A stretch of 64,000 bases of DNA, from assembly GCA_030052745.1 (NCBI GenBank), contig JANBVO010000019.1, forward strand, positions 558,001-622,000, in the 5' to 3' direction. Below, in pieces: positions 168 through 17,935 of the stretch. The stretch comes from Pleurostoma richardsiae. Lineage: Eukaryota > Ascomycota > Sordariomycetes > Calosphaeriales > Pleurostomataceae. Both the position numbers and the translations under genes were made by a program. The notes under the pieces are model-generated. The model had not been told where the DNA came from and made no database searches. It saw nothing but the letters and a program-made list of their open reading frames with translations. How positions within the stretch are numbered: position 1 is the stretch's first letter; each line of letters opens with the position of its first letter.

Positions 168-1451
168 CTACACGGTGCGAGCCCTCATATCTTCATACAT
201 GTCTCTATGCAAACCCTCAATCAGCTCCGTCACAACCTCTCCTTCCATCGCCATGTTGCCCACGGCCGTCTCCGCCCAAACGGTCCACCCCCGGCCGCCA
301 ACACGCTTCCCGCAGAACTTGACGGGCGAGCCGCAATACAGCGGATGCGTGTTGCGGTACTTGATGCTCTTGATGCCTTCAAATGTCCCGCTACCTGGCC
401 GAGCGCTAGCCCCCTCGTCAACGAGACGCTGCCGCAGGAGTGTGCATAGAAACGTCAGGGTCAGCGGACCATGAACGACTAGGCCCGGCAGCCCTTCAAC
501 AAGCTTGCAGTATTCTGGATCGAGGTGTATGGCGTGCGTATTGAATGTCAGGCTGCTATATCGGAATAGCAGCTTGGGATTCGGCCACATCGTGTGAGAG
601 AAGTCCTCCCTCCCACCGTATGGCGGCCTCATGCTCCGCTGTCGTGCCGTGGCTCCCGCTCCCTGCGCCGGCGGCTTCATGAACACCACGTTGCGCACCT
701 CCCGGACGCTCACCTGGTCGTCACGTCCCAACCGCTCGCGGATGCTGGTTTCGTCCTCGCCATCGGTGCACGGCCCCGCGCGCCGCTCGATAGCCACGAA
801 GACGAGGGGATTGTCGCTGTCGGGCCGTTTGACAACGACGTCTATGATGCGCTCCATACACGCGGCGCGGCCCCCGCCGAGGACCATACGCAGGGCCGGG
901 TTGTTGTTGAAGTGCACTTCCCCACCGGCCCACATGCGGCGGGTAAAGGGCGCTCCGGGCGACTGCCGGGGGTCGGTGCCGTCTGGGAGGGTCATGCTGT
1001 CGGGCAGCATGGGCGGGAAGTGCACCAGATGGTGGGATGGCGGGAGGTGGAACTTGTCCTCTAAGGCGGAAGGGAGACGTGGCTCAGTGTACGAGCCGTC
1101 GCTGTCACCAAACCGGGGTAGATAGTCGCTCAGTGTCATGCTTAGCATGTAAGATTGCCGTGGAGATAGGTAGTCGTAGATGATGGGGAGTCTGCGGGCC
1201 TTCATCTCATCGACATCGACTTTGTGAAACAGTGAACGGATGGCCACTCGCGTTCCTACTGACTCCGGAGGAGGCCATGAGAACCGTGGTCTCACCCCTG
1301 TCAGCAGTATTCCCCGAAGAGACAGCTGCGTTACCCCAGCCCCAAGCTTCATATCTATGAGGTTCGTCGCGTTCTGTTTCTGAAGCAAACGTCTTATGAC
1401 CACTCGCCCAAGAACAATTGGGCTAGCACATAATGCTCTCACAAGAGTCAA
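168..1451 (-). CDS. MaoC/HTD2-type hydratase, probable itaconyl-/mesaconyl-CoA hydratase
   Basis: A single-exon protein of 427 residues with a hot-dog fold hydratase layout. The C-terminal half carries the family signature: a 'LTFNTHAIHLD' stretch (about residue 300), then 'GLPGLVVHGPLTLTFL', which match mesaconyl-C4-CoA hydratase and the mitochondrial hydroxyacyl-thioester dehydratase HTD2. The N-terminus is basic and hydroxylated with few acids, which looks like a mitochondrial presequence. In this context the likely reaction is hydration of itaconyl-CoA (or mesaconyl-CoA) to citramalyl-CoA, because a citramalyl-CoA lyase-type gene lies divergently 265 bp away and a CoA ligase pair lies in the same cluster. 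The alternative is a second copy of HTD2 of mitochondrial fatty acid synthesis. The family call is firm; the substrate is inferred from neighbours. Confidence 0.8.
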   Translation of the reverse strand: MTLVRALCASPIVLGRVVIRRLLQKQNATNLIDMKLGAGVTQLSLRGILLTGVRPRFSWPPPESVGTRVAIRSLFHKVDVDEMKARRLPIIYDYLSPRQSYMLSMTLSDYLPRFGDSDGSYTEPRLPSALEDKFHLPPSHHLVHFPPMLPDSMTLPDGTDPRQSPGAPFTRRMWAGGEVHFNNNPALRMVLGGGRAACMERIIDVVVKRPDSDNPLVFVAIERRAGPCTDGEDETSIRERLGRDDQVSVREVRNVVFMKPPAQGAGATARQRSMRPPYGGREDFSHTMWPNPKLLFRYSSLTFNTHAIHLDPEYCKLVEGLPGLVVHGPLTLTFLCTLLRQRLVDEGASARPGSGTFEGIKSIKYRNTHPLYCGSPVKFCGKRVGGRGWTVWAETAVGNMAMEGEVVTELIEGLHRDMYEDMRARTV

Positions 1452-1716
1452 ACGCCGAGAGACTCGGAGGAACCTGTCGCTTGGTGTAAGAACCGTTTGG
1501 CCATCCTAGTGAGCGATGCTCGAGAGGGCATCTCGGCTATTTGCTAATTGTTCAGGGGGTATTGCACCGGTTATATGGCATAGATAGCCGACTCGCCCCA
1601 CCAGTTGACCTACACGCCCCAAGGAACTACCACAGGCCATGCGAAGACCGGACGGACTGTTATTACTGTGTCATGTTTTCAATACGCGTCACACTTTCCA
1701 TAGGAGAGCAGACAAG
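1452..1716. promoter_or_regulatory. Bidirectional promoter of hydratase and lyase genes
   Basis: This 265 bp stretch separates two divergent coding regions and must hold both promoters. It contains CCGGACGG at 1648-1655, a variant (CGG-A-CGG, direct rather than inverted) of the CGGWCCG palindrome found upstream of other genes in this cluster. No clear TATA box is seen. Confidence 0.5.
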
Positions 1717-2806
1717 ATGTCTGTCAGGCAGTCTTTGAGGAGGGCCATGCTATACAGTAAGAAACATGCAACTATGGGCACAGATTTCGGGAACTAAGCG
1801 ACTACAAGTCCCAGGGTCTTCTGAAAAGATGCTTGAGAAGTCTCGAAATCTTGCCATTGACTGCGCTATATACGACCTCGAAGACTCTGTCAGTCCCCAG
1901 AGCAAAGAGGCTGCCAGGAAGCGCCTAGGCGACTTTCTTTCGTCCTCACGGCCACACAGGGTCACCGAGGTCGCAGTCCGTATCAACGGAGTCGACAGCG
2001 GACACGCCCTAGATGATTTAACGAAAGTGGTTCGTAGACACCACAGGCGACTGCAAGTTTAGCCAAGAACTAAACATGTCCTATTACCACAGTTGAGAAG
2101 CCCAAATGTTGACACCATCGTCGTCCCCAAAGTGCAGACGGCGGCGGACCTCCATTTTGTCGCAGATGTCGTCCGCCACCTCCAGCCAGACCAGCGGGTG
2201 GCGACCTCAATCGAATATGGTAATTCTCGGCAGCAACAAGCATCACGGCTCCTGGCTCTGATCGAGACGGCCAAGGGTCTCGTGAACCTCCCCGATATCT
2301 GCAAGGCGAGTCCCCTTCTTTGCGGTCTTGGGTTCGCCGCGGAGGATTTCTGTCTAGACCTGTCTATAACGCGCAGCCCATCACTCAGTGAGCTGCTGTA
2401 CGCCCGTAGTGCAATAGTCACCGCCGCGCGCGCACATGATCTTCCGTCCGCCATTGACCTTGTATGCACGGCTTTTAAGGGCGATGAGGGTTTACAGGCA
2501 CTGGAGGACGAGTGTGCGGACGGTAGGCGGCTAGGATTCACCGGCAAGCAGGCAATCCACCCATCGCAAATATCTCTTATACAGAGCGCTTTCGGACCCA
2601 GCGGGGATGAGGTAGAGTGGGCTGTGAGGGTGGTAACGGCTGATGCGAAAGCCTCGGCGGCAGGAAAGGGAGCTTGGACTATGGACGGGAAGATGGTCGA
2701 CAGTCCCGTCGTTTCAAGAGCACAAGGAATCGTAAACAAGGCCGCGGAGTGTGGAATAGACTTGCAGGCGATGCGGGAGAAGTGGAAAGATCAGAAACCA
2801 GAGTAG
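1717..2806 (+). CDS. Citramalyl-CoA lyase-type HpcH/CitE family lyase (CLYBL-like)
   Basis: Three exons are inferred: 1717-1756, 1809-2029 and 2093-2806, giving 324 residues. The short first exon encodes 'SLRRAMLY', and splicing a 52 bp GTAAGA intron joins it to 'IPGSSEKMLEKS', the normal CitE start; starting later at 1766 would lose this. Family motifs follow in order: 'YDLEDSV', 'AVRING', 'VVPKVQ', 'ALIETAKGL', 'GFAAEDF' and 'GFTGKQAIHPSQ', which build the Mg/CoA-ester site. The family cleaves (S)-citramalyl-CoA or similar beta-hydroxyacyl-CoAs to acetyl-CoA and pyruvate or glyoxylate. Length fits CLYBL and fungal citramalyl-CoA lyases. It is divergent from the hydratase that would make its substrate. 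No PTS1 is seen; the basic N-terminus may be mitochondrial. Confidence 0.82.
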
Positions 2807-2944
2807 ATAGTATTCTTGGGCGTATGAGTCCCTCGTTGGCAAAGCAGCAGTACCATTCCAAAATTTTGACGCTGTATCTATCCTGTCAACTATCTGGCTT
2901 AGACTCCGTCTACTCATACCCTAGCGCTGCGGAAAACATCACAT

Positions 2945-4227
2945 TCAGCTCCAGTCAATGACGGGCTTGACAACCTAGGTAGCACAGTGACATGGATTAG
3001 CCTGCTGCTGTAAAGAGAACTGGCCTCGGTTGACTGGACATTCACGTACCCGACCTGAATGCATATCACGGATTGCATCCTGCAGCTGAGATACCGGATA
3101 TGTCTTGCAAAGCTTCTCGATCGGGAAATGCCCTGCCTGATGCATGGCAATCAATTTCGGGATGAACTCCGGGGGATTGGAACCGCCTTCGATGACACCG
3201 ATGAACTTCTTGTTGTCTAGCAGGAAGCGTAGAGGGTCAATTTGGACGCGGGCTCCCGAGGGCGGTACTCCAACGATAGCCGCTGTGCCTTCGGGTCCGA
3301 TCGACTCAATCATATCCTCGATCACCTTCGGAACACCAGTGCAGTCAATCGCGAACATCGCGCCACCATTAGTAACGCGCCGGATTCTTTCAACCACGTT
3401 GCCGGCCTCTCTCGAGTTCACCGCGTCCGTGGCTCCCAGTTGCGTCGCGAGGTCCAGCCTGTCCTTCAGAATGTCCACGGCAATGATCTGTCCGACTTCC
3501 AGGTAGCGTGCAGCCATCAGAGCGGCGAGCCCGACACTGCCGAGGCCAAACACGACGACGGAGTCTGCCTTAGTTGGCTTAAGCACGTTTAAGACGGTGC
3601 CGGCGCCTGTCTGGAACCCGCATCCAATAGGGGCGAATAGCTGTAGTCGACTGGGGTCGGGGCACTTGACCACGCACTTTTCGTTGACGACCGACATCTT
3701 CGAGAAAGACGACTGGCCAAAGTACTGGCTCCTCACCGGCTGTCCATCGACAAGCCTGGCAGGTGTACTTCGGTCGCTCAGCCTGACAGCGTTGTGGTTG
3801 ACTTGGGGGTGAATGTGGCAAGAAGCTGGACGGCCTGACATGCACGCCTTGCAATTGTCACACGTGTTGAATGAGAGGAGTACAGCGTCGCCGACTTTGA
3901 TCTCCTTGTTCTTGACATCCTTGCCAGTTGCGCGAACGATGCCCGCACCCTCATGCCCGAAGATGGCTGGAAACTCACACATGGGCAGGAGGCCCTGCTG
4001 CAAGACGATATCCGTGTGGCCTGCGAGAACATCAAGTCTCAGTCACAATGAAGCTGCGAGAAAGAAGGGAAGCATCGGAAAAGGAGGATGGAGGGAGGCT
4101 GAGAAGAGGACAGCTTACAGATTCCGCTGTACTTCATCTCAACAAGCACCTCATCCGCGCGGACTTCGTCAAGTATGACCGGGACCAACCTGAAGTCCGC
4201 CTTTGGGCTTTCCACGACCAAGGCCAT
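2945..4227 (-). CDS. Zinc-dependent alcohol dehydrogenase, aryl-alcohol/XylB type
   Basis: Three exons are inferred: 4227-4119, 4020-3050 and 2974-2945, giving 369 residues. The last exon is only ten codons and restores the normal family end 'VVKPVIDWS' that a read-through of the second intron would destroy. The medium-chain dehydrogenase features are complete: 'GICHTD' and 'GHEGAG' for the catalytic zinc, the four-cysteine structural zinc loop 'CDNCKACMSGRPASC', and the Rossmann motif 'GLGSVGLAA'. It oxidises a primary alcohol to an aldehyde with NAD. The frame stays open upstream to ATGs at 4386 and 4407, which would add a polar extension of about 53-60 residues; I chose 4227 because family homology begins there and its context is ACCATGG. 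Probably cytosolic. Confidence 0.85.
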
Positions 4228-4911
4228 GGTTTCGATGTTTCTACGCGGTTCTGAGCTGTCCAGTGCTGTATTCAATTGCCCAGTGTTTGAGGCATCTTCC
4301 TCGTGGCTGACCTGTGCCTCCCATTTCTCTGAGGAAGCAGCCTTGTCATACGTTGATAGGTGCGTTTCTAGCTCTGCCGATGCCATGTTATTCGAAATCT
4401 GTGCCATTGGGCAAGAAGATATCTCGATAGGGAGTGTAGTCACGGTGCAGATTTCGGGACAATGGGTCTGACCGACATAGAGGACAAGGAGGTGAGGATT
4501 TGACGTAGATCTACAAGTAGACGCCGTTGGAAAGGCCGCCGGACACCCGCTCGGCCGTGACCCGGTCCGGGTTGTGCTGGGCCGGCCGGTTGGGGGAGAC
4601 CCGGTGGCTTCAGTCATAGCCGACTAGTACTACGGGCCGCGTGAGGGCCACTGAGTCGAGTCCCGCAACGGTAGAGATGCAGCATTTCTTACGCCTTGCT
4701 AGCAAACCCGCACTGGACTGTTAGCTCTTCATCTTCAAAGACATATTTAAGGATCACGGGTGGTGCAGCTGCAATAAATCATGCGCTTGAGATAGGTATG
4801 AAGGCATTGGCTGCAGGCTGAGGGCTATCTCACTCTCGCAGTGCGTAGAATGCGAACGGGAAATGCGGGTGGAAATGTACAGATGGGTGCCAAATAGCGC
4901 TACCAAGCCCC
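4228..4911. promoter_or_regulatory. Alcohol dehydrogenase promoter region with CGGTCCG palindrome
   Basis: A 684 bp gap between the alcohol dehydrogenase start and the stop of the next minus-strand gene. CGGTCCG lies at 4563-4569 within a longer near-palindrome ACCCGGTCCGGGT, followed by a GGCCGGCCGG run. The same heptamer (or its complement CGGACCG) occurs upstream of three other cluster starts, so it is a candidate Zn2Cys6 operator. Confidence 0.45.
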
Positions 4912-6730
4912 CTACTTCGGTGCCGGCATGCCCGTGTTGAGATACACAGCCTTCGTTTGCGTGTAATTCTCCAGCACAGCCTCCCCACATTCTCTCCCTA
5001 TGCCGCTCTGCTTGTATCCTCCAAACGGGATACTCCAATGCACGAGATTATACATGTTGACCCAGGTCGTGCCGGCCTTGAGCGCGTTGGTCACGCGGAC
5101 CGCGCGTTCGTAGTCTTTGGTGTGCACGGCAGCGGCTAGGCCGTAGCTCGTGTCGTTGGCGAGCTGTAGAACCTCATCCTCCGAGGAGAACTTGGCGATA
5201 GCGACGACGGGGCCGAAGATCTCTTCTTTCATGATCTGCAACGCATAGGCTATTTAGAAAGACGTGCTCTGACTTGGAGGCATTGTAAGAGACATGGGAG
5301 ATGTTGGCTTCACTCACCTTCATATCCGGCTTCACGTTCGTGAAGATCGTGGGCTCAATATAGTAACCGCTTCCGCTGCCGACTTTTGCTGTCTTGCCGC
5401 CCAGTTGGACTGTCGCGCCTTCTTGCTTTCCGCTCTCGATGTAATCGAGGATTTTCTGGTGCTGCATCTTGCTGTTCTGCGGACCCTGGTCTACACCGGC
5501 CTCGAAGTTGTCGCCCACCTTGAGCTTGGCCATGCGCTCCGTATACTTCTGGACGAATACATCGTAGACGTCCTCGTGCACGTAGATGCGCGTGCCCGCG
5601 TGGCATGTCTGGCCGAAATTCATGTTGATGCCCCAAGCGGACCACTCCACGGCCTTCTCCATGTCGGCGTCTGGGAAGATAATGTTCTGCATCCACTGTC
5701 AGTCACGTTTGGACTTTCATTCTGTGTACAGAGAGCAAAATCAAGAAAGGGTAACACACCGGGCTCTTTCCTCCCAGTTCAAGAGTGACCTTCTTTAGGT
5801 TGGATGCTGCAGAAGCCTTCAGGATCGCCCTCCCGGTTGCCGTGGAGCCAGTAAAGGCGACCTTGTCGATACCCATATGCGAGGCAATGGCATTGCCTAC
5901 GGTCTTGCCGAAGCCTGGTACGTGGTTGATGACTCCGGCAGGGAATCCCGCCTCTCTGATCAGCTCACATATTTTCAGGGCTGTTAGCGGAGTCGCCTCG
6001 GCGGACTTGATCACCACAGTGTTGCCAGCCGCAATAGCCGGAGCGATCTTCCAGGTAAACATCAGGAGGGGGAAACTAGGAGCATCGTCAGTCCTCTGCT
6101 GGCGTGCGATAGTGCAGATGGCGAAACCACTCACTTCCATGGTATAATCTGACCACAGACTCCGATGGGCTCCCGTCGAGTGTAGGCAAATGCCCCAGGG
6201 ATGTTGAACGACGTCATGCCTAGTATCTTGTCCGCCCAGCCCGCATAGTACTTAAGCGTGCCTACGGATCCGGGAAAGTCGAGAGTAGATGCTTGTCGGT
6301 ACGTCTTGCCCGTGTCGACCATCTCGAGGGCTATGATATCTTCCTTGTCGCGCTCCATCAGCTCTGCCAGTCGGTGCAGGAGCTCGCCCCGGTAGACTGG
6401 GTTGGAAGAAGCCCATTGGCTGCTCTCAAAGGCTCTCCGTGCAGCTTTGACGGCCTCGTCAACGTCCTCTTCCCGACCCTCTTCGACCCGTAATAGCTCC
6501 GTCGCTGTTGCTGGGTTCTCGACGCCGAATGTGTTGCCGCCGATAGACTTCCTGAACTCGTTGTCGATGAACAGACCGGTAGGCACAGTGACATTGCGGC
6601 CGGCAATCTTCAGCACTTGTGACGGAGCGGTACTAGCCAGCCGCGCAAGCTTCCAGCCCTGGTTCGGCCGATGGGCTCGTAGCAAGGCTCCTCCTCGGGC
6701 TAGAAGGACTGACCTCTTCACCATCGACAT
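4912..6730 (-). CDS. Mitochondrial aldehyde dehydrogenase (ALDH1/2 type)
   Basis: Four exons are inferred: 6730-6135, 6075-5760, 5686-5318 and 5235-4912, giving 534 residues. All junctions keep frame and fall at standard family positions. The first 35 residues are basic and free of acids ('[14 protein letters not shown]'), a convincing mitochondrial presequence. Catalytic features are present: 'IIPWNFPLL', 'GSTATGR', the general-base Glu in 'LELGGKSP', the nucleophile Cys in 'GQTCHAGTR' and 'EEIFGPV'. The protein resembles ALDH1/2 rather than semialdehyde enzymes. It probably oxidises the aldehyde made by the adjacent alcohol dehydrogenase, whose coding region lies downstream on the same strand. 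Confidence 0.9.
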
Positions 6731-7201
6731 ACTTGCTATTCAGAGAGCAATGCTTATTCAATAAAATGGTACAAGCGCCGGCCCATGGGAATACGGTCAT
6801 CATACTTGAAGATATAACTTGCACAGAGAGTGGTTGGTACTCGGTTATATGATCCGCCTAGACACGGACCGTGTTACGCTACCGGGTAGCCGTGCTACTG
6901 TACTGTTAATTTAGCTAAGGCGATGCAGGTCATTGTTAGCTAATACAAGAATCCCTAGCCCCTAGAAACTGTACGTTAGCATATTCAATAGAGGTTTCAG
7001 GGTGTTTGAAATCTGGTTGGTGCCTTTGAATAGGCGCCGTGGGATCAGATTCACAAGGTCTAATGAGAAAGCCGCACAGCCGACAGATAGGTTGTCTATT
7101 CTACGGAAGGTTACGACGACGTCTCTACCTCCAAGACACAAACACAAAGCGTATGTTGAGGGATACTTGCGAGCCGGCTCTTGTTACCAGAACATGTACT
7201 G
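6731..7201. promoter_or_regulatory. Aldehyde dehydrogenase promoter region with CGGACCG palindrome
   Basis: A 471 bp gap. ACACGGACCGTGT, centred on CGGACCG at 6865-6871, is a 13 bp palindrome apart from its central base and lies about 135 bp before the aldehyde dehydrogenase start. The 3' half of the gap is downstream of the next gene and shows nothing else recognisable. Confidence 0.5.
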
Positions 7202-9032
7202 TTAAATCTGTCGTACTGGCAGACCTAGTCCTCCCAGTGTGACTGTCTGGAGGGAATGTCAGATAATATTCTTAGAAGCACAGGATGCACGCGATGTCTT
7301 ACCTTCAATATTTGAAACTCTTCAATGCCCACGCGGCCGCCCTCACGCCCAAAGCCGGAGTGTTTGACACCACCGAAAGGAGCCACGGGGTCGGAAATCA
7401 CACCTGTATTGACGCCCACCATGCCAGTCTGCAGCAGCTCCGCAGCCCTCCACGCCTGGGATAGTTTGTCAGTGTAGACGTAAGCAGCCAAGCCGACTTC
7501 AGAGTCATTGGCCATCTTCAGGAGCTCCTCTTCCGTCCCAAAGCGATAGAATGCCACCACCGGGCCAAAGATCTCCTCTCGGCTAGCCCGCATTGACGAA
7601 GTCATGTTCTTCAACACTGTAGCTGGGTAGAGCGTTTCACTGTCATTGCTCGACCTGTCTCCACCCGTCACAACTTCCGCGCCCTTTTCGCGAGCATCCT
7701 GGATCAGTCTCTCAACCTTGTCCGCGGCCTTGCGGGTAATCAGCGGGCCAAGAGTTGTTCCCGCGGACATGGGGTCTCCGGGAATCATCCTCTCGCGAAC
7801 CACCGCGGCGAATCGGTCCACGAAGGTGTCGTAGATACCCTCTTGGACATAAACGCGGTTGGCGCAGACGCAGGTCTGCCCTGATGCACGAAACTTGGCC
7901 GCCATGAGGCCCTCAACAGCGGTGTCCACATCGGCATCGTCGAAAACTAGTTCCATATTAGACGACACTTCAAAGTCTCCTTCACAGGAGAGGTACCTAC
8001 TGATGAACGGCGCATTTCCGCCCAGCTCCATTGAGAGCTTTTTGAGTGTCGAGCTCGACTGTTGCATGAGGATTTTCCCGACTCCCGTGGAACCGGTAAA
8101 AGACACCTTCTTGACCAGTGGGCTCTCGCATATTGCCTTACCCACCTCGGCGACATTCTTGTTCGCCGTGACGATGTTGAACACCCCAGCGGGCAAGCCA
8201 GCCCGCTCGCCCAGCTCCGCCAGCGCCAGTGCAGAGTAGGGAGTCTCCGCCGCTGGCTTGAGCACCACACTGCACCCGGCCGCAACCGAAGCCCCGACCT
8301 TCCTGGTGATCATCGCTGACGGGAAGTTCCACGGCGTGATGATCCCCACCACCCCGACGGGCTGCTTCAGTGTCAGGACCCGATTTCCAGGCGTGCTGGA
8401 CTCGATGGTCTCTCCATATGCGCGGAGTGCTTCTCCCTGGAACCACTCGAAGAAGCTCGCCGCGTACTTGATTTCCGCACGTGCCGCCTCAAGGGGGCGC
8501 CCGTTCTCGAAGCTTAGGATGGTCGCGAGGTCACCCTCGTGCTCTTGCATCAGCTCGAACCATCTCTTCAGGATACCCGTGCGCTGTCGCGCTGAGCTGT
8601 GCTGGAACGAATCGAATGCCTGCTGGGCGATCTCAATACCGCGGACAGTGTCCCCTTGATCCCTGGTTCAAAGGTCAGCATTGTCGACGCTCTCGATCTG
8701 CCGACCGTCCTTAGACTATTCCTCTTACATCTCAGGGCATGTTCCTATCTCGGCGCCGTTGAAAGGATTGGAGACGGAGAACCGCTTTTTTGTCTTTCCA
8801 TCTGTCCATTTGCCGCCCACGTACGCCTGATCCCGGAGGAGTTTGGGATCCCGGAGTTTCGATCTCAGCTTTTAAGGTTCGTCAGCAATGTTCGGCTATA
8901 GGGAGGCACGTCACGTACTAGCTGGTTAGCTTCCGAGGCGAACGACCGTCTACACTGGGGGTTCGCTCTCAGCGCACCGTGGCCGGTCACCGCCGGCCAT
9001 GGAAGATGACGACGAGATACACGATAATACAT
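7202..9032 (-). CDS. Mitochondrial succinate-semialdehyde dehydrogenase-type ALDH
   Basis: Five exons are inferred: 9032-8919, 8868-8729, 8662-8001, 7946-7303 and 7246-7202, giving 534 residues. The first exon encodes a basic mitochondrial presequence ending in 'RRSFASEANQ'; the second supplies 'LRSKLRDPKLL', typical of the start of this family; the 15-codon last exon supplies 'TVTLGGLG'. Motifs: 'ITPWNFPSAMITRK', 'FTGSTGVGK', 'MELGGNAPF', and the catalytic Cys in 'GQTCVCANR', which with the 'KVGASVAAGCSVVLKPA' stretch mark the GabD-like succinate-semialdehyde branch. It would oxidise succinate semialdehyde or a substituted analogue such as itaconate semialdehyde to the diacid. The best-placed enzyme to feed the neighbouring CoA ligase. 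Confidence 0.88.
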
Positions 9033-9381
9033 CTCCCAAGGATTTAGAAATTGAATTGGCAGTCAGGTAAGCAATTGCTTGATCGGCTTGTAAAATGAGC
9101 AGTTCTTAGCTGTTCTCGGTCATCCATTATCCGAGTCAACAATGCCGCGTGGCCGGACCGTGATGGCCGGGCCCGCCTCCGCACCACGAGAGCCGAGCGC
9201 TTGATATATGAGATATCCGGGCTAGAAAGCCGGTACTTCTTTGAAATTATTGTCCATGTACCTCAGTAGTACTGCATCTGGAGAACTGGTACTCGCTCCT
9301 TTCATTCGGGGCTCATCCGTGCTTTCTCTTTCGGGCGAACATTTCGCGACAGTACATCGTTGGGCAGGACAGCTCTCCATC
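9033..9381. promoter_or_regulatory. Bidirectional promoter with CGGACCG palindrome
   Basis: A 349 bp region shared by the divergent semialdehyde dehydrogenase and short-chain dehydrogenase genes. CGGACCGTG begins at 9154, identical over nine bases to the copy at 6865, and sits about 122 bp from one start and 222 bp from the other. Confidence 0.5.
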
Positions 9382-10328
9382 ATGAATGCGATCAAGCGAG
9401 GCTCTCGACTGGCCGGCAAGGTCGCCATCGTGACAGGTTCGTTCTTCCCGGTTTTTCGGGTCAATATTTGTCGCAATCGTGCAGCTGACCAAGTGTAGGG
9501 GGAGGCTCTGGGTACGGAGAAGGCATAGCGAGAAGGTTCGCCCAGGAAGGCGCAAATGTCCTGATCGCCGACATCAACGAGCAGGGCGGGAAAAGCGTCG
9601 CTCATCAGCTTCCCGAGTCGATCTCCTTCCTGAGGGCTAATGTGGCTCTGGAGGAGGACTGGCACAAACTGATGGACACAGCCCAGTCGCGCTATGGCCG
9701 GATAGATTGCCTGGTGAACAACGCCGGCACGACGTACAAGAACAAGCCTACGGTAGATGTTACCAAGAAGGATTTCGATAGATGCTTCGACGTCAATGTG
9801 AAGGGTGTCTTCTTTGGCACGGCAGCGCTCATGCCACGGCTCATTAAGCAGGGCCAGGGAGGCGTCATGCTGAACATCGCGTCCGTGGGCGCCACGCGGC
9901 CGAGGCCAGGCCTTGTCTGGTACAATGCCTCAAAAGGCGCTATCTGGAACGTAGGTCTTGAGGATTTCGTGAAAGGGGCGTCCACTGATCTCAGCATGAT
10001 CCTAGGCAACCAAGGGCCTCGCCGCCGAGTACGGCCCTTACCAAATACGCGTCAACTCTGTCTGTCCTCTCCTTGGAGGCACTGGCTTGTGAGTAGACCA
10101 TTCAGGCACCTATTCCTACATGTATGTCTCTAATCGGCGGCTAGGTTTGAGGCCTTTTCCGGCTTACCGGACACACCAGAGAATAGGGCTAAGTTCATCG
10201 ACAATGTCCCACTGAGGCGCCTGTGCGAGCCGGATGATGTCGCGGGAGCTTGTGTGTTCTTGGCTTCTGATGAGAGCAAGTTCATTACGGGGATCAATCT
10301 GGACGTTGATGGCGGCCGGGCTGTATAA
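9382..10328 (+). CDS. Short-chain dehydrogenase/reductase (FabG-like)
   Basis: Four exons are inferred: 9382-9436, 9499-9950, 10006-10088 and 10145-10328, giving 257 residues, the normal classical SDR length. The nucleotide site 'TGGGSGYGEG' is created across the first splice junction. 'NNAG', the catalytic Ser in 'NIASVGATRP' and the 'YNASK' Tyr-Lys pair are intact, and the C-terminus has 'GINLDVDGGRAV'. An Asp after the second beta strand ('LIADIN') suggests NAD rather than NADP. It would interconvert a hydroxyl and a ketone. Its step in the pathway is unknown; it shares a promoter with the semialdehyde dehydrogenase, which points to co-expression. Confidence 0.85.
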
Positions 10329-10840
10329 GATTTGTGTGGATAAAAGTGATAGAGTGCTGTATTCACCCTTGGGGCCTTGCACGGACTGGCATATTCATTA
10401 GATACTCTGAGCTTCATGGTTCCGCTTCAAGTTTCTCACATAGCAGAATAAAGCTTCCTCCACGACCTCGGAAAATAAAGACTATGGAGCACCAGTGAGA
10501 GCCTCAGCGTTCGCCCCCTGTGCTAGAACCTTATCGCTACGGCCATGAGCGGCACTATCGCTGACCACTTTAAGGCACAACCCTAGTGTATAACCGTGAG
10601 CGTCGGCAAATTGCGTCGAGTAGCCTAAATACACTTGGGTCTCAGCCTATCACTTCGCTGATCGGGTCTCGGAGCCATACTGAAATAGTATCCAACCCAC
10701 CTACAAACCGTCATGTAGCCGATGACCTTCGGCCCCAGCTAGCCCATAAATCTTTCCTCTTGAGGGGAATCTGTCACCCCTCTAAGCATTATCAGACCGG
10801 AAATCTCGCAGCCGAGAGACGCGGACTACCTGTCACGGCC
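10329..10840. other. Intergenic, upstream of ligase beta gene
   Basis: A 512 bp gap between two plus-strand genes. It has CGG-rich half-sites (for example CGGACTA near 10822) but no exact CGGWCCG palindrome. I see no coding signal. Confidence 0.4.
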
Positions 10841-12398
10841 ATGACGTCGAAGCACTTTACACTCACTGCTCTGAGAAGCGGCCTCAACGTACGTCGGGAA
10901 CGCAACGCCGCTGAACCCGGTCGTCTCACTGACCCCCATTTTCAGCTCGTGTCAAAACAGCAGATACGGCGCCTTAGTCTGCACGAGTACCAGTCGCAAA
11001 GCCTGCTCAAAGAGGCAAGTATCGGACGCCCAGGGGTCGTGTAGAGGTAGATCGATTCTTCTCTAAACGTGCGACTTGCAGTTTGGCGTACCTGTGCCTC
11101 GCGGGAAACTCGCCCAGTCTCCAAAGGAGGTTGCTAGCATCGTTGAGGAATTAGGTGAGGACATCTTTTGCTTCCGGGGTCACACCCTGATATGCTGAGG
11201 CGAAAATAGGTAGACGATGCGTCATCAAATCACAGATATTGAAAGGCGGCCGTGGGAAGGGCTCGTTCGACAGCGGTTTGCAGGGAGGCATACATAGTGT
11301 CGACACACCCCAGGCGGGAGAAGCCATCGCCGGTAGGATGATTGGGAGCCGGCTCAGAACGAAGCAGACCCCCGAGACTGGTATCACCGTCAACAAACTT
11401 TATGTTGCCGAAGCGGTCGAGTACGACCAGGAATGGTATCTTGCCATGACGATTGACCGGGAGAACTACGCTCCGACCATCATCATCTCTAAGAATGGCG
11501 GCGTTGACATCGAGATGACGGCCCGGGAGCACCCGGAGGAACTCCATGCATTCAGATTCAGTATCACAAAGGGCATCACGCAGGAGGTAGCCGACGAAAT
11601 ATCCAGCAGGCTCGGGCTGTCTCCTACCGAGACGGAAAGTCTCCGGAGCGTGCTCGACGGAATGTATGATGTGTTTACCAGCAGAGATGCGACTCTCCTC
11701 GAAGTAAACCCTCTAGTACGGTCAGCAGAAGGTGGCTTTACTTGCCTGGACGCCAAGTTCACCTTTGATAACGCCGCCGAGAAGCGACAGAGGGATCTGT
11801 TCGCGCTGCGGGATGCAGAGAACGAGGTGCCGGAGGAGGTTGAGGCCGAGAAATACGGCCTGGTGTACGTCCGAACGGACGGCAACATCGGGAATGTGGT
11901 CAACGGTGCTGGGCTTGCGATGGCAACTAATGACGCAATTGCCTATCATGGCGGTGCGAGTGCGAACTTTCTCGATGCGGGCGGCCAGGCGACGAAGGAG
12001 ACGATGCAAAAGGCCTTTGAGATCATCCTGAGAGACGACAGAGTCCGGGCCGTTTTGGTCAACATCTATGGTGGTGAGTGACGAACTACGACCTTCCTTC
12101 AGATGCAGCTGACCGACGTCGCCCTTCTACCACAGGTATCATCAGGTGTGATATGATCGCCGAGTCTATTATCGGCGCCGCTCAGGAGCTAGGCCCCTTG
12201 CGGGTGCCGGTAGTTGTTCGACTGCAGGGGACCAACTCCGAACTTGGCCTGAAGCTTGCACGTCTCCCGTAACTCTTGCAATGAGAATGACCGCTGACAA
12301 TGGGCCGACAGCTCGAAGATGCGGACCTCGGCTTGCATACGGAGCATGACTTCGGTGAGGCTGCTAAGAAGGCGGTAGAGCTAGCAAATGCCGGTTAG
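10841..12398 (+). CDS. Succinyl-CoA ligase beta subunit paralogue, mitochondrial
   Basis: Six exons are inferred: 10841-10888, 10946-11014, 11082-11154, 11210-12073, 12136-12257 and 12312-12398, giving about 420 residues. The beta-subunit signature '[14 protein letters not shown]' starts the mature protein after a short presequence. '[18 protein letters not shown]' is the ATP-grasp nucleotide loop, 'LLEVNPL' binds Mg, and '[10 protein letters not shown]' with 'ANFLDAGG' are conserved interface elements. The intron after exon 2 has a GC donor (GAG then GCAAGT); the last intron also seems to use GCACGT, so that junction is less certain. With the alpha subunit it forms a thioester from a dicarboxylate, CoA and a nucleoside triphosphate. 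Placement in a catabolic cluster with hydratase and lyase suggests a substrate such as itaconate. Confidence 0.85.
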
Positions 12399-12776
12399 GA
12401 GGAGTGAGAGAGGAACTACGTAGTTGTCATACAATGAGACGAGACTCGCTTAATGATGAGATACGCCGTGGAAGAACTTTCACTTTGTAACTGCGTTGGA
12501 ACAGATTTCCTCATCTTTTGGGAGCGAGAAATGTTGACGACTGTCATATGGTGCCTTGAGTGTATCAAAATAAGATCTGTTCATGTTGGAATGACTAGGT
12601 AAACTACCAACCGACCTGTTTAGAAGTACCAGGACCATTCCATGCCTGGTATGGCGCTACGGACGTGATGAGCAGTAAGACGAACCGAAAGTAATTGACC
12701 GTGCTATGTCTCGAACTCGAAGTGTATGGTGTATTCTTCGTCATTGCCTGTCTCGGCAGCTACATACAGATTGCTA
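12399..12776. other. Convergent 3' region between ligase subunit genes
   Basis: 378 bp between two stop codons of convergent genes. It should hold both 3' untranslated regions; nothing else is recognised. Confidence 0.4.
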
Positions 12777-13949
12777 TCATCCCAAGAGTCTCTTCATCTC
12801 ACTTCCCATCAGACCGGGATGAGGCACGATCACCGCGCCGGCATCCTCCAGTGCTCTGGCCTTGGCATCCGCAGACACATCTCTTGGAGACAAGAGTGCT
12901 CCCGCATGACCCATGACCTTGCCTTCTGGCGCCGTTCTCCCAGCAACCATAGCGACGATAGGCTTGGGGTTAGGCGTCGTCCTCCTGTACTCCTTGATGG
13001 CCTCCGCCGCTCTGAGCTCCGCCTCGCCGCCAATCTCACCGATGACGATAATGCCTTTGGTGTCCTCGTGGTCGAAAAATAGCCTCAGGCCGTCCAGGAG
13101 CGTCGTCCCCGGTAGCATGTCGCCGCCCATACCGACGACGATGCTCTGCCCCAGCCCGGCCCTTGTCGTTGCGCCAACAGCCTCGTAGCTGAGCGTGCCG
13201 CTCTTCGAGACGATGCCCACGACGCCTCTGGAGTATTGCTTGTACGGCATGATGCCGATCCGGCACTGTTCCGGCGCGATGATTCCAGGACAGTTCGGCC
13301 CGACCAGGCGAGTCTTGCTCTGGGTCCTCAGCACCTCCTGGACGCGCAACATGTCGTGCACGGGGATGTGCTCCGCCACAGACACTACGAGCGGCACCTC
13401 CGCCTCAATGGCCTCGATGATGGCGCGCGCGGCAAATTGCGCCGGCACAAAGACGGAGCTTGCATGCGGCTTGACCTGGTCCATAGCCTACAATCAAAGA
13501 CAGTCAGTTAAGCCAGGGACGCACCCAGCTGACCTGGTCGTATCCGAGAACCTCACCTGCTGTACTGTGTCGAACACCGGCAAGCCGAGGTGGTCCTGAC
13601 CCCCCTTCCCAGGCGAGACACCTCCTACGATATTTGTCCCGTATGCAATGGTGTCCTTCGCATTTATTGTCGCCTACTACTGTCAGAAACTAGGGTGCTT
13701 GTCCACCGTGATGGGTTTTCATGGACGTACGGCTTTGCCAGTGAAACCTTGGGCGTGTTAACGGGTCTATGCTGCCAAAAGGGGATCTGAGAGCAGCGTA
13801 CCTTGGTATATAACCCGCGTGTTTTTATCTATCCGAAGGTTTGCAATGGTATCGTCGTACGATCTGCATATCCTGCTCGACGAGAAAAGCCTTCGTCCAT
13901 GGTGTTCCCTGGTAAGCAGGGCACACACTCTGGTTTGGATTCTCTGCAT
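12777..13949 (-). CDS. Succinyl-CoA ligase alpha subunit paralogue, mitochondrial
   Basis: Five exons' worth of signal resolve to four coding exons: 13949-13802, 13747-13731, 13673-13557 and 13487-12777, giving 330 residues, the usual length. The second exon is only 17 bp yet is needed to make the universally conserved 'YQGFTGKAAT' CoA-binding segment. A presequence with '[20 protein letters not shown]' marks mitochondrial import. '[15 protein letters not shown]', '[11 protein letters not shown]', 'VGPNCPGII', '[13 protein letters not shown]' and the phosphorylated His in 'MGHAGALLS' are all present, so the enzyme should be active. It faces the beta subunit gene. A respiratory-cycle copy is expected elsewhere in the genome, making this pair a specialised paralogue; that is inference. 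Confidence 0.9.
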
Positions 13950-14567
13950 GACGCTGGCTCTCTGACATCTGATAGGAGATTAAGCTGTCGGTGTTCGCCG
14001 AACTCGAGCGCGCTGAGCAGAGTGATGGTTATGTTGGCCCAGCACGGCAGTCCTTGAGCCTCTCACATGGATGTCCTCCAACAAAAGCAATGCATAGCTT
14101 GATTGATTCACGAAGGACGGAAAGTCTACCGAGGTACCGAAACCTTGTCGGCTACTACACGAGATAAGCGGCGCGTAAGTTTTACTCGGCTTCTACCAGA
14201 ACCAGACAAAACAGCAAAGATGTCTATGACGTCCGACTGCACCAAATTGCCCAAATGATCATCGTCTACTAGACTTCGGCTACATACATACGGAAGAGCC
14301 GGAGTAAATTAAGATGTCCTCCTATCGCAGCCACAGTTTCCCGTCCCCGCTCGTTACCCCGTGGGGTCATTCTGTGGTGTGGGAACGGCCGATCCGCCCC
14401 GGACCGTCCATGGTAATATTCGGCAATACGCAGTATATCGGCTATAGTAGTAGCAGGGGAAAAGGCGACCTGCCGCCGGCCTCCCTCGGCCAGCTCATGG
14501 AGCGATTTCCTTCGTCGCCTAGACAAGTTGCCGAATTCACAGAGTTTCCTCTTCCACGAGAACGGCT
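13950..14567. promoter_or_regulatory. Bidirectional promoter of ligase alpha and cluster regulator
   Basis: 618 bp between divergent genes. CGGACCG at 14400-14406 lies about 160 bp before the regulator start and would allow autoregulation. CGG-N6-CCG also occurs near 13990-14001, nearer the ligase gene. Other sequence is unremarkable. Confidence 0.45.
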
Positions 14568-16682
14568 ATGGCAACTCCCCGGAGACGCGCGAGACAGGCG
14601 TGCCTCGCCTGCAACGCGAGAAGGGTGAAATGCGACGTCATCGAGCGCCTCCCCTGCCGGAACTGCATCGTGGCCGATGTGCCATGCGAGATCCGGGAGT
14701 CGCGGCGAGGAAAGCACCCCCGGCCGCGGCCGGCGGGTGCGCTTAGACATAATGCCGATGGCGAGGAGCCGCGGTCGTCCATCTTGTTCAGCCCTGATCC
14801 CGTGGCGGGTCAGCACATCGATGAGCACGTAGCCGCCTCTCAGGTGCTTGCGACGCTATCACGGGAGGGTGAAGGCCAGAGGCAGCATGAACTCTTCGAC
14901 GGAGACACTACCGGCAGCCGCGTGCAACCGCCGACACGTTCTGCGCCTCTTCCGCAGACAGATGCGCTGCCGGAAGACGAGGGAACGGTCTTCCTTGGCG
15001 AATCCACCTCCATCAGATACATGCATAGCGACCCAAGCCCGTCGCAACCGGACACCTCTTCTCCTCAGACTCTTGGCTTCCGCCACTCTATCCCAAGTGC
15101 GGTGACAGCTGAGGGTCTCATGCCAGAATGGGAGACACGACGGAGACAAGCGAGGATAGACTCACTTAGAGCGGACGGCGCATTCTCTCTGCCACCCGAG
15201 TCGGTGGTTGAGACGCTGCTCGGAGCCTACTTCCGCTGGTTCCACCGTTGCTTTGCCATTGTCGACGAGGGCGAGATCCGGGACCAGTACCAAAAGGGAA
15301 CCCTGTCACCACTTCTTCTCCAGGCGATGCTCTTGATAGCCACCGTCCACTGCGATGACGACGATCTGCACCTGCTGGGGCTGGGCAGCCGTCATATGGC
15401 CAAATGCGTCTTCTACAACCGCGCCAAAGACATCTATGACGCCGAATTTGAGCCCAACAAGCTCACGGTTATCCAGGCGTTGTTCCTCATGAGCTTCTGG
15501 AGAGCGGGTGCCCTACTAGAGAAGGATGCCCGTCACTGGTTGAGCGCCGCGATCAGTCTGGCCCAGACGAAGGGTCTGCACCGAGCTGCTGGCTCCCCAC
15601 GAACCCATGCCGACAAGGTACGAAAGAGACTATGGTGGTCGATATATGTTCGTGAGAGGCAGTGCGCAGCCGCTCTGGGCCTCCCAAACCGGTTCAGAGA
15701 CGAGGACTGCGATGTCGAGCCCCTTGATGAGGGCGATTTCGACCACGCATTCGGTGTGTCGGTCACCGAAGACAAGAGAAGGGAGTATGTGGCCTATTCG
15801 ATCAGGATGGCGCAGCTGTCCCAGGTACTGGGCAGAGTCGTCCACAGCGGATACCTGCCAAAGAAGACCCTATCTGCGAGCGGACGGTCGGGGCTCAAGG
15901 ATGAGCTCATCGCCTGGAGACAGGGGCTGCCTCCAGAGATGCAGCTCGGTAGAGATGACTTCGGCGAGCAGCCAAGTTTCCACGCCAACATGTTGCATCT
16001 AGCATACAACAATCTCCTCATACTTCTATACCGATCCGGGTACATCGGCACAGCGGAAGAATCCCAGGAGATAGACGGACAGGTGGCCCTGCAGGCGGCG
16101 GTACGAAACTCGAGGATCATCGAGGAGATGCTCGCGAATGGAAACCTTCGTCATGGCCAGGTGCACACCATAACAAACCTCTTCAACACGCTCTGCATCC
16201 ACACCGTCAGCCTGCGGGCCTCTCAGGGCACGGCCAGAGCCATTGCGGAGCACCGGGCGAAGCTCTGCCTCCTCGGCCTGCAGGAGCTGCAGAAGACCTG
16301 GGAGGTGCGGAACTGGGTGTTGCAATTATTCTTCCAGTATCTCGACAGTTCGACCGCCGCCCGACTACGGACTGAGGGCGATTCCGGGGCTGGTCCGTAT
16401 CCGACCGGAGCTCCTAAGAAGGATCGGCCACGGGTGTGTACGACGACAAACTGCTCGGGACCAGAATCACGCCAGCATGATGGCGAGACCGCGACAGGGG
16501 CGCCACTTGTGCCAGATACGCCGTGGTCGTGGTCGACTGAGGAAGCCAGTCACTACCTCTTCTCGCAGATTGAGAGCGACTTCGCATTCGGAGAGGGCAG
16601 CATCCTTGAGTGGCACTGGGACGATGCGGGGAATATGATGCCCCTGTCACAGATAGGTCACTCAAGTCCGTCCATGATGTGA
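14568..16682 (+). CDS. Zn2Cys6 transcription factor, likely cluster regulator
   Basis: A single-exon protein of 704 residues. The zinc cluster is at residues 12-40 with cysteines at 12, 15, 22, 30, 33 and 40, preceded by a basic stretch. The central fungal-specific transcription factor domain (about residues 215-450) has the typical 'YFRWFHRCFAIVDEGE', 'FLMSFWRAG', 'AISLAQTKGLHR' and 'RKRLWWSIYVRERQCA' elements, most like the cutinase factor 1/acetamidase regulator group. It lies at the end of the catabolic cluster and its promoter carries the same CGGWCCG palindrome as the enzyme genes, so it is the natural pathway activator. The inducer is not known. Confidence 0.88.
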   Translation: MATPRRRARQACLACNARRVKCDVIERLPCRNCIVADVPCEIRESRRGKHPRPRPAGALRHNADGEEPRSSILFSPDPVAGQHIDEHVAASQVLATLSREGEGQRQHELFDGDTTGSRVQPPTRSAPLPQTDALPEDEGTVFLGESTSIRYMHSDPSPSQPDTSSPQTLGFRHSIPSAVTAEGLMPEWETRRRQARIDSLRADGAFSLPPESVVETLLGAYFRWFHRCFAIVDEGEIRDQYQKGTLSPLLLQAMLLIATVHCDDDDLHLLGLGSRHMAKCVFYNRAKDIYDAEFEPNKLTVIQALFLMSFWRAGALLEKDARHWLSAAISLAQTKGLHRAAGSPRTHADKVRKRLWWSIYVRERQCAAALGLPNRFRDEDCDVEPLDEGDFDHAFGVSVTEDKRREYVAYSIRMAQLSQVLGRVVHSGYLPKKTLSASGRSGLKDELIAWRQGLPPEMQLGRDDFGEQPSFHANMLHLAYNNLLILLYRSGYIGTAEESQEIDGQVALQAAVRNSRIIEEMLANGNLRHGQVHTITNLFNTLCIHTVSLRASQGTARAIAEHRAKLCLLGLQELQKTWEVRNWVLQLFFQYLDSSTAARLRTEGDSGAGPYPTGAPKKDRPRVCTTTNCSGPESRQHDGETATGAPLVPDTPWSWSTEEASHYLFSQIESDFAFGEGSILEWHWDDAGNMMPLSQIGHSSPSMM

Positions 16683-16954: not shown

Positions 16955-17935
16955 TTAAGTAGATTTCCCTTCCACTTTGCCCAAGGCCTCCAAGCCCGCC
17001 AGAGCCTTGCATGCCTCGGGCCAAGACTTGTCTCCCTCGTACAGCTGACTCTTGAGATAGGCCAAGGTCATCCTCTGCACCGCCGCCAGCCGCTCCGGGC
17101 TCTCATCCAAAGTCTCCTTCGCGTCCCACCCGCTAATCCCTCCAAACCCATGTTTACCACCCTTGACCATGAACGACTCCTTGGCCCCCGGAGCCAAAGT
17201 ATACGGGTCCGCGTGCCAGTCCGCTCCACGCACCGTCAGGTGCGGACCCACGTCCTCGTCTCCCCAGACCACGAGGGCGGGCGTGCGCATGCCGCTGAAG
17301 TCGATGCCGTAGAATGGGAGCATGACGCGCCCGTTGTCCGAGAGATCCTGCCCGGCGGCACCGGTGCCTCCGATCACGACTCCGGCCTTGATGCGCTTCT
17401 CCGCCAGCTGCGTCTTCGTGCCGTCGCGCGGGTCCGTATTCGTCGCGCCCAGCAGCACGCTCGCCGTCAGTGCGCCGAGCGAGTGGCCCGCGACGGCAAC
17501 CCTGCTCCTGTCGAGCCGGCCCTTGAGCAGGGGCACGGCAGCCTCGATCTCATCGAGTCGGTCGAGGATGCGGGTCATGTCGAGGGCGCGCGACTCCAGG
17601 AACAGCTCCCGGATGCTATCGGCTCCGAGGGCGAGGCCGAGAGACTTGGAGCTGAGGTGTGTGGGCTGAATGACTGCAAAGCCGTGCCCGGCCCAGAAAT
17701 CGGCCAGCGGGGTGTAGCCCTCGAGCGAGGAGAGGTAGTTGCTCAGGCCGTGGCCGTGAGAGAGGAGGATGATGGGCAGGGCATCGCCCGTGGAGGGGAC
17801 CGACACACGCAGTTGGAGATCGACCCTGCGGTCTGGGCAGGGGAGCACAACAGGGCTGAAGGAGAGGACTGGGGTAGGGGAGCTGGTGGGGATTCTGGCG
17901 GCTTCGCCGATGAGAGCGTGATCGGTGAGCTGCAT
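16955..17935 (-). CDS. Alpha/beta hydrolase (PAF-acetylhydrolase/dienelactone hydrolase-like)
   Basis: A single-exon protein of 326 residues with a complete alpha/beta hydrolase core. 'ILLSHGHGLSNYLSSL' gives the oxyanion region, 'AVAGHSLGALTAS' (about residue 170) has the nucleophile Ser, 'VVWGDEDVGPH' the likely acid Asp and 'KGGKHGFGG' the His. There is no signal peptide, so it is intracellular. Substrate is unknown: an ester, a lactone or a chlorophyllase-like target are possible. It is encoded 272 bp after the cluster regulator on the opposite strand. If it belongs to the cluster, lactone or ester opening before the alcohol dehydrogenase step would fit. Confidence 0.78.
   Translation of the reverse strand: MQLTDHALIGEAARIPTSSPTPVLSFSPVVLPCPDRRVDLQLRVSVPSTGDALPIILLSHGHGLSNYLSSLEGYTPLADFWAGHGFAVIQPTHLSSKSLGLALGADSIRELFLESRALDMTRILDRLDEIEAAVPLLKGRLDRSRVAVAGHSLGALTASVLLGATNTDPRDGTKTQLAEKRIKAGVVIGGTGAAGQDLSDNGRVMLPFYGIDFSGMRTPALVVWGDEDVGPHLTVRGADWHADPYTLAPGAKESFMVKGGKHGFGGISGWDAKETLDESPERLAAVQRMTLAYLKSQLYEGDKSWPEACKALAGLEALGKVEGKST

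Follow-up and report, generated by a model that had tools for sequence, protein, structure and literature searches.

The stretch analysed here (the window) comprises 64,000 nucleotides of the ascomycete Pleurostoma richardsiae, positions 558,001–622,000 of contig C48 (JANBVO010000019.1), in an assembly of 39.4 Mb and 136 contigs. Near its left end lies a group of nine genes (Table 1), among them a hydratase, a lyase and both subunits of a succinyl-CoA-ligase-type enzyme, which may together break down a branched five-carbon (C5) dicarboxylic acid. A sequence-only reading had counted eight enzymes and one regulator here; the count is borne out by the spliced models and by the profile searches which that reading proposed, with Pfam and, for the eight enzymes, NCBIfam, and all the families it named are present within about 170–16,680. 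All nine models, spliced by hand, have intact frames without internal stops, and three pairs are divergent (HYD/LYA, ALDH2/SDR and SCSA/TF).

Table 1. Genes of the cluster, with positions in the window.
Gene	Product	Position	Strand	Gene model
HYD	MaoC/itaconyl-CoA-hydratase-like double hot-dog hydratase	168..1352	-	394 aa, one exon, start codon uncertain
LYA	CLYBL-type HpcH/CitE lyase	1639..2806	+	3 exons, 350 aa; shorter start possible at 1717
ADH	Zinc alcohol dehydrogenase	2945..4386	-	3 exons; Pfam match on main exon; start uncertain
ALDH1	BADH-like aldehyde dehydrogenase	4912..6730	-	4 exons; mitochondrial-like N-terminus (by eye)
ALDH2	Succinate-semialdehyde-dehydrogenase-like	7202..9032	-	First exon inferred; mitochondrial-like N-terminus (by eye)
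SDR	Short-chain dehydrogenase	9382..10328	+	4 exons, 257 aa
SCSB	Succinyl-CoA-ligase-type beta subunit	10841..12398	+	6 exons, 420 aa
SCSA	Succinyl-CoA-ligase-type alpha subunit	12777..13949	-	4 exons, 330 aa
TF	Zn2Cys6/Fungal_trans regulator	14568..16682	+	704 aa, one exon (Pfam)

Start codons are uncertain in three models (HYD, LYA and ADH), and the SCSB model requires two GC-AG introns, of which the second has a weak donor site (GCACGT). The idea that ALDH2 is a gene without a start was dropped, since there are eight possible joins for its first exon, of which the best-formed one, with a 50-base intron, was chosen.

A scan for the Ligase_CoA domain found five places in the genome: the two window subunits and one gene on each of contigs C6, C79 and C59. 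The C6 gene is over the cut-off for the beta subunit of succinate-CoA ligase and the C79 gene over that for alpha, and these represent the housekeeping pair; the possibility, raised in the sequence-only reading, that the window holds the only succinyl-CoA ligase of the genome is thereby excluded. Window and housekeeping subunits are 43% (beta) and 53% (alpha) identical, the housekeeping models being approximate joins. SCSB exceeds the NCBIfam cut-offs of NF001913 (443.8 bits, cut-off 370) and TIGR01016 (397.5, cut-off 375.6), while SCSA exceeds that of NF004230 (352.1, cut-off 336) and is one bit short for TIGR01019 (352.2, cut-off 353.2). SCSA also keeps GHAGA at 287–291, which we take to be the phosphohistidine motif. 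The subunits were compared with 23 beta and 22 alpha references (the human sequences and, for each subunit, 21 bacterial ones, of which some are probably malate-type), and columns kept in at least 95% of these were regarded as conserved (85 in beta, 84 in alpha). The window alpha subunit departs at 13 of its 84 conserved columns, the housekeeping alpha at 3. Changes in the window beta subunit include P314S, G323Q and L286T, where the P, G and L are kept in all 23 references, C292N, where 22 of the 23 have C, and V320A, where the references have V, I or L; we presume these residues to lie near the acid site. Judged from such replacements, the window pair may still act as a ligase, its specificity for the acid having changed.

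The closest solved relative of the lyase in a search of the PDB is human CLYBL (5vxc, E = 2.5e-47). Its NCBIfam scores, 201 bits for citE and 158 bits for RipC_Ccl, are both under the cut-off (375 for RipC_Ccl), and the latter model gives 138 and 132 bits with its two paralogues in the genome. One of these, LYA2 (56.5% identical to LYA), is found on contig C82; the other, LYA3, is a third CLYBL-type lyase (C78:278131–279069, locus L020; 58% identical to LYA), near the end of its contig, and the frames on its left side include no pathway partner that we could recognise.

HYD scores 23.5 bits with the Pfam MaoC model, under the cut-off of 27 bits, and its placement therefore rests on searches of solved structures and of folds. 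With E values up to 1, the only sequence matches in the PDB are 8khg and 8huc, the Pseudomonas itaconyl-CoA hydratase (E = 2e-17). An AlphaFold2 model of HYD (mean pLDDT 74.9), whose input alignment contained 27 bacterial relatives and may be biased towards them, also has 8huc as its best fold match (E = 6.8e-22; TM score 0.58 by query and 0.86 by target). There were 208 fold matches reaching E = 0.001, and the next family is hydratase 2 of the peroxisomal enzyme MFE-2 (E = 8e-14). By Pfam and the fold search of the predicted model, the fold of HYD is thus the MaoC double hot-dog. At E up to 0.01 it has two relatives in the genome, both on C82: M3, near 905 kb, and M2, near 1,279 kb, the latter adjoining LYA2.

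Of the four oxidative enzymes, ADH has no NCBIfam family over cut-off, ALDH1 reaches 550 bits with BADH (cut-off 668.6), and ALDH2 630.6 bits with the succinate-semialdehyde dehydrogenase (SSADH) model TIGR01780 (cut-off 646.4), its first exon being absent from the scanned sequence; SDR is over the cut-off of PRK07231 (313 bits, cut-off 215). Six of the eight enzymes (HYD, LYA, ALDH1, ALDH2, SCSA and SCSB) have N-termini of mitochondrial type, a call made by eye from basic residues and few acids. The N-terminus of ADH is acidic and not mitochondrial-like, and SDR was left out of the set because its Rossmann motif begins immediately.

A second cluster occurs in the same genome, at 1,277–1,291 kb of C82 (loci L017 and L018). 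It contains LYA2, M2 and TF2, a paralogue of the window regulator, as well as a type III CoA-transferase, an acyl-CoA dehydrogenase, a major facilitator superfamily (MFS) transporter and a carboxylesterase. Where the window has a ligase and alcohol and aldehyde dehydrogenases, C82 has the CoA-transferase and the acyl-CoA dehydrogenase; neither of the latter two had a match in the window and the 30 kb to its left (for the transferase by tblastn at E up to 1e-3, other CoA-transferase families being unsearched). The C82 transferase is 65–68% identical, over the aligned part, to Acinetobacter neighbours of genes for hydratases like Ich, the itaconyl-CoA hydratase. TF2 is the closest paralogue of TF, with about 274 bits summed over exons against 172 for the next gene, in a ranking by simple sum of exon bits in which 63 of 128 candidates were scored; the two are 33% and 42% identical in two stretches. 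By its make-up, the C82 cluster resembles the bacterial itaconate/methylsuccinate operon, of which it would be a fungal counterpart. Since it is the C82 set that resembles the operon known from Pseudomonas, the window cluster probably handles a related but different acid, and the fungus seems to hold two routes, one driven by a transferase (C82) and one by a ligase (window). In our judgement the nine-gene grouping is more than chance, because a lyase and a hydratase again stand together with a paralogous regulator on C82 and because the genome has a further ligase pair besides that of the window.

The promoters of the window cluster contain a recurrent CGGNCCG, an arrangement chosen by eye. 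Its five occurrences in 2,925 promoter bases compare with an expectation of 0.78, and none of 500 shuffles reached five; with corrected boundaries there are again five, in 2,761 bases, against 20 in the 47 kb beyond. The sites lie upstream of ADH and ALDH1 and in the ALDH2/SDR and SCSA/TF intervals; none was found between HYD and LYA or between SDR and SCSB. We regard them as a hint at most.

Considering these features together, we see an even chance that the cluster is regulated and largely mitochondrial and breaks down a branched C5 dicarboxylate of the itaconate/mesaconate family, with an alcohol or aldehyde as the precursor of that acid. The order of the steps is inferred from the enzyme families, and the compartment, the co-regulation and the five-carbon substrate are likewise inferred. 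ADH, perhaps with SDR, would oxidise the alcohol to an aldehyde; ALDH1 and the SSADH-like ALDH2 would convert the aldehyde ends to the C5 diacid in the mitochondrion; SCSA/SCSB would then form the CoA ester at the expense of a nucleoside triphosphate; HYD would hydrate this to citramalyl-CoA; and LYA would cleave the latter to pyruvate and acetyl-CoA. What the sequence-only reading proposed, an itaconate-type cluster with its own ligase, stands as far as the enzymes go: ligase, hydratase and lyase belong to the families expected, the ligase comes in addition to a housekeeping pair, and the matches to CLYBL and to PaIch, the Pseudomonas itaconyl-CoA hydratase, agree with it. Itaconate itself has become less likely as the substrate, and a related acid more likely, in view of the CoA-transferase cluster on C82.

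Bacterial gene neighbourhoods were considered as a guide to function but rejected for this purpose. Around Ich-like hydratases, 80 loci were kept of 83 confirmed, some of them cut by contig ends, and neighbours were matched at E up to 1e-8. A lyase was found in 23, a C82-type CoA-transferase in 23, ALDH1 and ALDH2 matches in 55 each, SDR in 3 and ADH in 1; the aldehyde dehydrogenase matches come mostly from one alphaproteobacterial group and belong to a large family, so that no weight is attached to them. The ligase-bearing version is rare in this set, with both ligase subunits near the hydratase in a single locus (L056), from a metagenome-assembled genome of Rhodobacter sp. It has, in a row, a lyase, ligase beta, ligase alpha, the hydratase and a type III CoA-transferase, the last resembling 2-methylfumaryl-CoA isomerase (501 bits, below the cut-off of 725). 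Ligase subunits, CitE-type lyase and Ich-like hydratase thus stand side by side in L056 as in the window, but L056 has a beta subunit of malate type, a CoA-transferase and no ADH or ALDH match.

Several observations weigh against a C5 pathway in the window. In the hydratase tree described below, HYD joins M3, a possible HTD2 enzyme of fatty acid synthesis, and not M2. The C82 cluster already offers a route for itaconate, and itaconate alone needs no ADH, ALDH, SSADH or SDR. ALDH2 is not the sole SSADH-like enzyme of the genome, 12 other places matching it at E up to 1e-60 (for example C47 with 44% identity, C13 50%, C112 56%, C104 54% and C1 54%). The beta subunit of the window departs at 7 of 85 conserved columns, hardly more than the 6 of 85 in the housekeeping beta, although the sites differ but for one, and the window ligase still scores as a succinate ligase in NCBIfam. 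The N-terminus of SDR has the same count as that of SCSB (five K+R, one D+E), CGGNCCG was not found in five C82 stretches (4,092 bases), and the one bacterial locus of the 80 with both ligase subunits, L056, combines a malate-type ligase with a lyase and an Ich-like hydratase, so that the gene combination alone is no proof of a C5 acid.

Some of these points would fit two adjoining units, a four-carbon one (ADH, ALDH1, ALDH2 and the ligase) leading from 4-hydroxybutyrate or 1,4-butanediol to succinyl-CoA, and an independent HYD/LYA pair. The SSADH type of ALDH2 and the succinate-ligase scores agree with such a division, as does the distribution of CGGNCCG, which spares the HYD/LYA interval. 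Counts of CGG/CCG in the promoters are non-specific, however, as 3 of the 47 other triplet arrangements tried had counts that likewise none of 500 shuffles reached; the housekeeping ligase could serve succinate; and the closest paralogue of TF adjoins the hydratase/lyase pair on C82, which ties TF to HYD and LYA. We consider two units unlikely. A malate-type route, in which the ligase would form malyl-CoA, or a methylmalyl-CoA, and the lyase release acetyl-CoA and glyoxylate, has a precedent in serine-cycle bacteria, where malate-CoA ligase and malyl-CoA lyase act in this way. The gene row of L056, whose beta subunit exceeds the malate-CoA ligase cut-off (649.7 bits, cut-off 604), speaks for it. 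SCSB, on the other hand, reaches 341.5 bits with that model (NF010647), far under 604, and scores 102 bits better with the succinate model (for the housekeeping beta the margin is 50 bits), while LYA is nearer to human CLYBL than to malyl-CoA lyases (5ugr, E = 5e-33; 4l9y, E = 7e-27). This route appears very improbable.

The remaining alternative concerns HYD, which could belong to the HTD2 type, the dehydratase of fatty acid synthesis in mitochondria, or be a surplus copy of such an enzyme, its place beside the lyase being incidental. The identity of HYD is 40% with M3 and 30% with M2, and a maximum-likelihood tree joins HYD and M3 with 100/100 support, leaving M2 outside; the tree is flagged for long branches and composition, which forbids over-reading it. 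It had 36 rows (HYD, M2, M3 and 33 of the 80 bacterial hydratases, that of L056 cut down to its C-terminal 293 residues); thinning of the alphaproteobacterial group removed 46 rows, and one sequence of 51 aa was left out as too short. M3 may itself be HTD2: by reading of frames, it adjoins eRF1-like and prephenate-dehydratase-like genes, neighbours of housekeeping appearance, and a table for Aspergillus niger has an "HTD2 protein" separate from IchA (PMC6320622). Against this, M3 is only a putative HTD2, and other MaoC genes (C78:230934 and C71:40203, from a PF01575 scan that missed M2 and M3 and is thus incomplete) could serve as the HTD2 of fatty acid synthesis. HYD also stands head to head with a CLYBL-type lyase, and in likeness to PaIch it lies between M2 and M3 (89.9 bits for M2, 66.7 for HYD, 36.1 for M3). 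The grouping with HTD2 that the sequence-only reading had named as a refuting result is thus half seen, in the clade with the putative HTD2 M3, while the PaIch scores speak against it. We judge an HTD2 role for HYD decidedly unlikely.

Within the C5 interpretation, one more specific and speculative substrate would be a C5 analogue of gamma-butyrolactone/4-hydroxybutyrate, such as alpha-methylene-gamma-butyrolactone (tulipalin A), entering through 4-hydroxy-2-methylenebutanoate; that the cluster is a complete mitochondrial pathway of this kind, with a re-specialised ligase, is a long shot. ADH would yield the semialdehyde, ALDH2 itaconate and the ligase itaconyl-CoA, from which HYD and LYA would produce pyruvate and acetyl-CoA. 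If so, the ligase would be a neofunctionalised enzyme of the tricarboxylic acid (TCA) cycle, its C-terminal beta domain having been remodelled (L286T, C292N, P314S, V320A and G323Q), and one fungus would have two separately regulated C5-diacid routes, by transferase and by ligase. Botrytis tulipae is reported to degrade tulipalin, with a laccase gene as the only Botrytis gene identified for such detoxification (BMC Genomics 2019, PMC6417074). Even with the substrate wrongly guessed, candidate genes in this combination would have their use.

Adjacent to TF, at 16955–17935 of the window (minus strand), is a gene for an alpha/beta hydrolase with weak likeness to PAF-acetylhydrolase and chlorophyllase, which may hydrolyse a lactone or an ester in the cluster pathway. 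At the other end, on the 3' side of HYD, a second Fungal_trans regulator (one Pfam piece; L006:8128–10000) ends just left of the first base of the window, and further left are genes for a Vps4-like AAA protein and an MFS transporter of sugar type. The gene at L007:6796–7857 encodes a linalool dehydratase/isomerase (Ldi) domain (E = 1.5e-45), which is, to our knowledge, unusual in a fungus. Another group lies 20–26 kb to the left of the window, on C48 at about 532–537.4 kb (L031:4208–9366), and consists of two MmgE/PrpD genes with a divergent gene for citrate synthase. The second MmgE/PrpD gene has cis-aconitate decarboxylase as its best PDB match (E = 1.7e-28). The trio resembles An01g09930/40/50 of A. 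niger (PMC6320622 and PMC6862759); should its product be itaconate or an alkylitaconate, the closeness of the trio to the window cluster would matter.

Among known systems, PA0878–0886 of Pseudomonas aeruginosa contains ich, an acyl-CoA dehydrogenase, a lactonase, an MmgE/PrpD isomerase, ict, ccl and a transporter (PMC9875883 and PMC12290011). Its specific core, an itaconyl-CoA hydratase of the family of HYD (8khg) and a citramalyl-CoA lyase, has putative counterparts in the window, but the operon activates by CoA-transferase, and its genes named here include no SucCD-type ligase, ADH or ALDH; its make-up is matched by the C82 cluster and not by that of the window. Aspergillus terreus and A. 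niger use IctA, IchA and CclA (PMC6320622), which are alike to the window in the putative hydratase and lyase steps, compared by name, and in mitochondrial targeting, predicted for all three in A. niger. They are unlike it in that a CoA-transferase activates the acid and that the A. niger genes are unclustered. Activation by transferase is not universal in itaconate clusters, as itaconate can also be activated by succinyl-CoA synthetase (SCS), and a CoA-transferase is missing from some of the bacterial clusters (PMC12290011).

The mammalian hydratase of itaconate breakdown, AUH, is a crotonase-family protein. In that route, SCS–AUH–CLYBL (PMC13307414), an SCS-type ligase, a CLYBL-type lyase and, probably, the mitochondrial location are shared with the window; the term "mammal-like" used in the sequence-only reading fits the ligase and the lyase, and not the hydratase, which is of MaoC type in the window. 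SCS itself activates the acid in mammals, whereas the window has a second ligase pair. No fungal cluster with a dedicated ligase was found in the open-access literature, as judged from titles and abstract openings. If fungal itaconate breakdown also exists in a clustered, ligase-driven form preceded by oxidative steps, this would suggest a growth substrate not yet recognised, and the additional ligase pair would show how, in nature, an enzyme of the TCA cycle can be turned to another acid. As two clusters with paralogous lyases and regulators and different activation occur in one genome, the assignment of substrates is directly testable. The window cluster would be a variant: the kind of pathway is known, as are activation by transferase in fungi and by SCS in mammals and some bacteria, and what would be new is the clustered, ligase-driven version.

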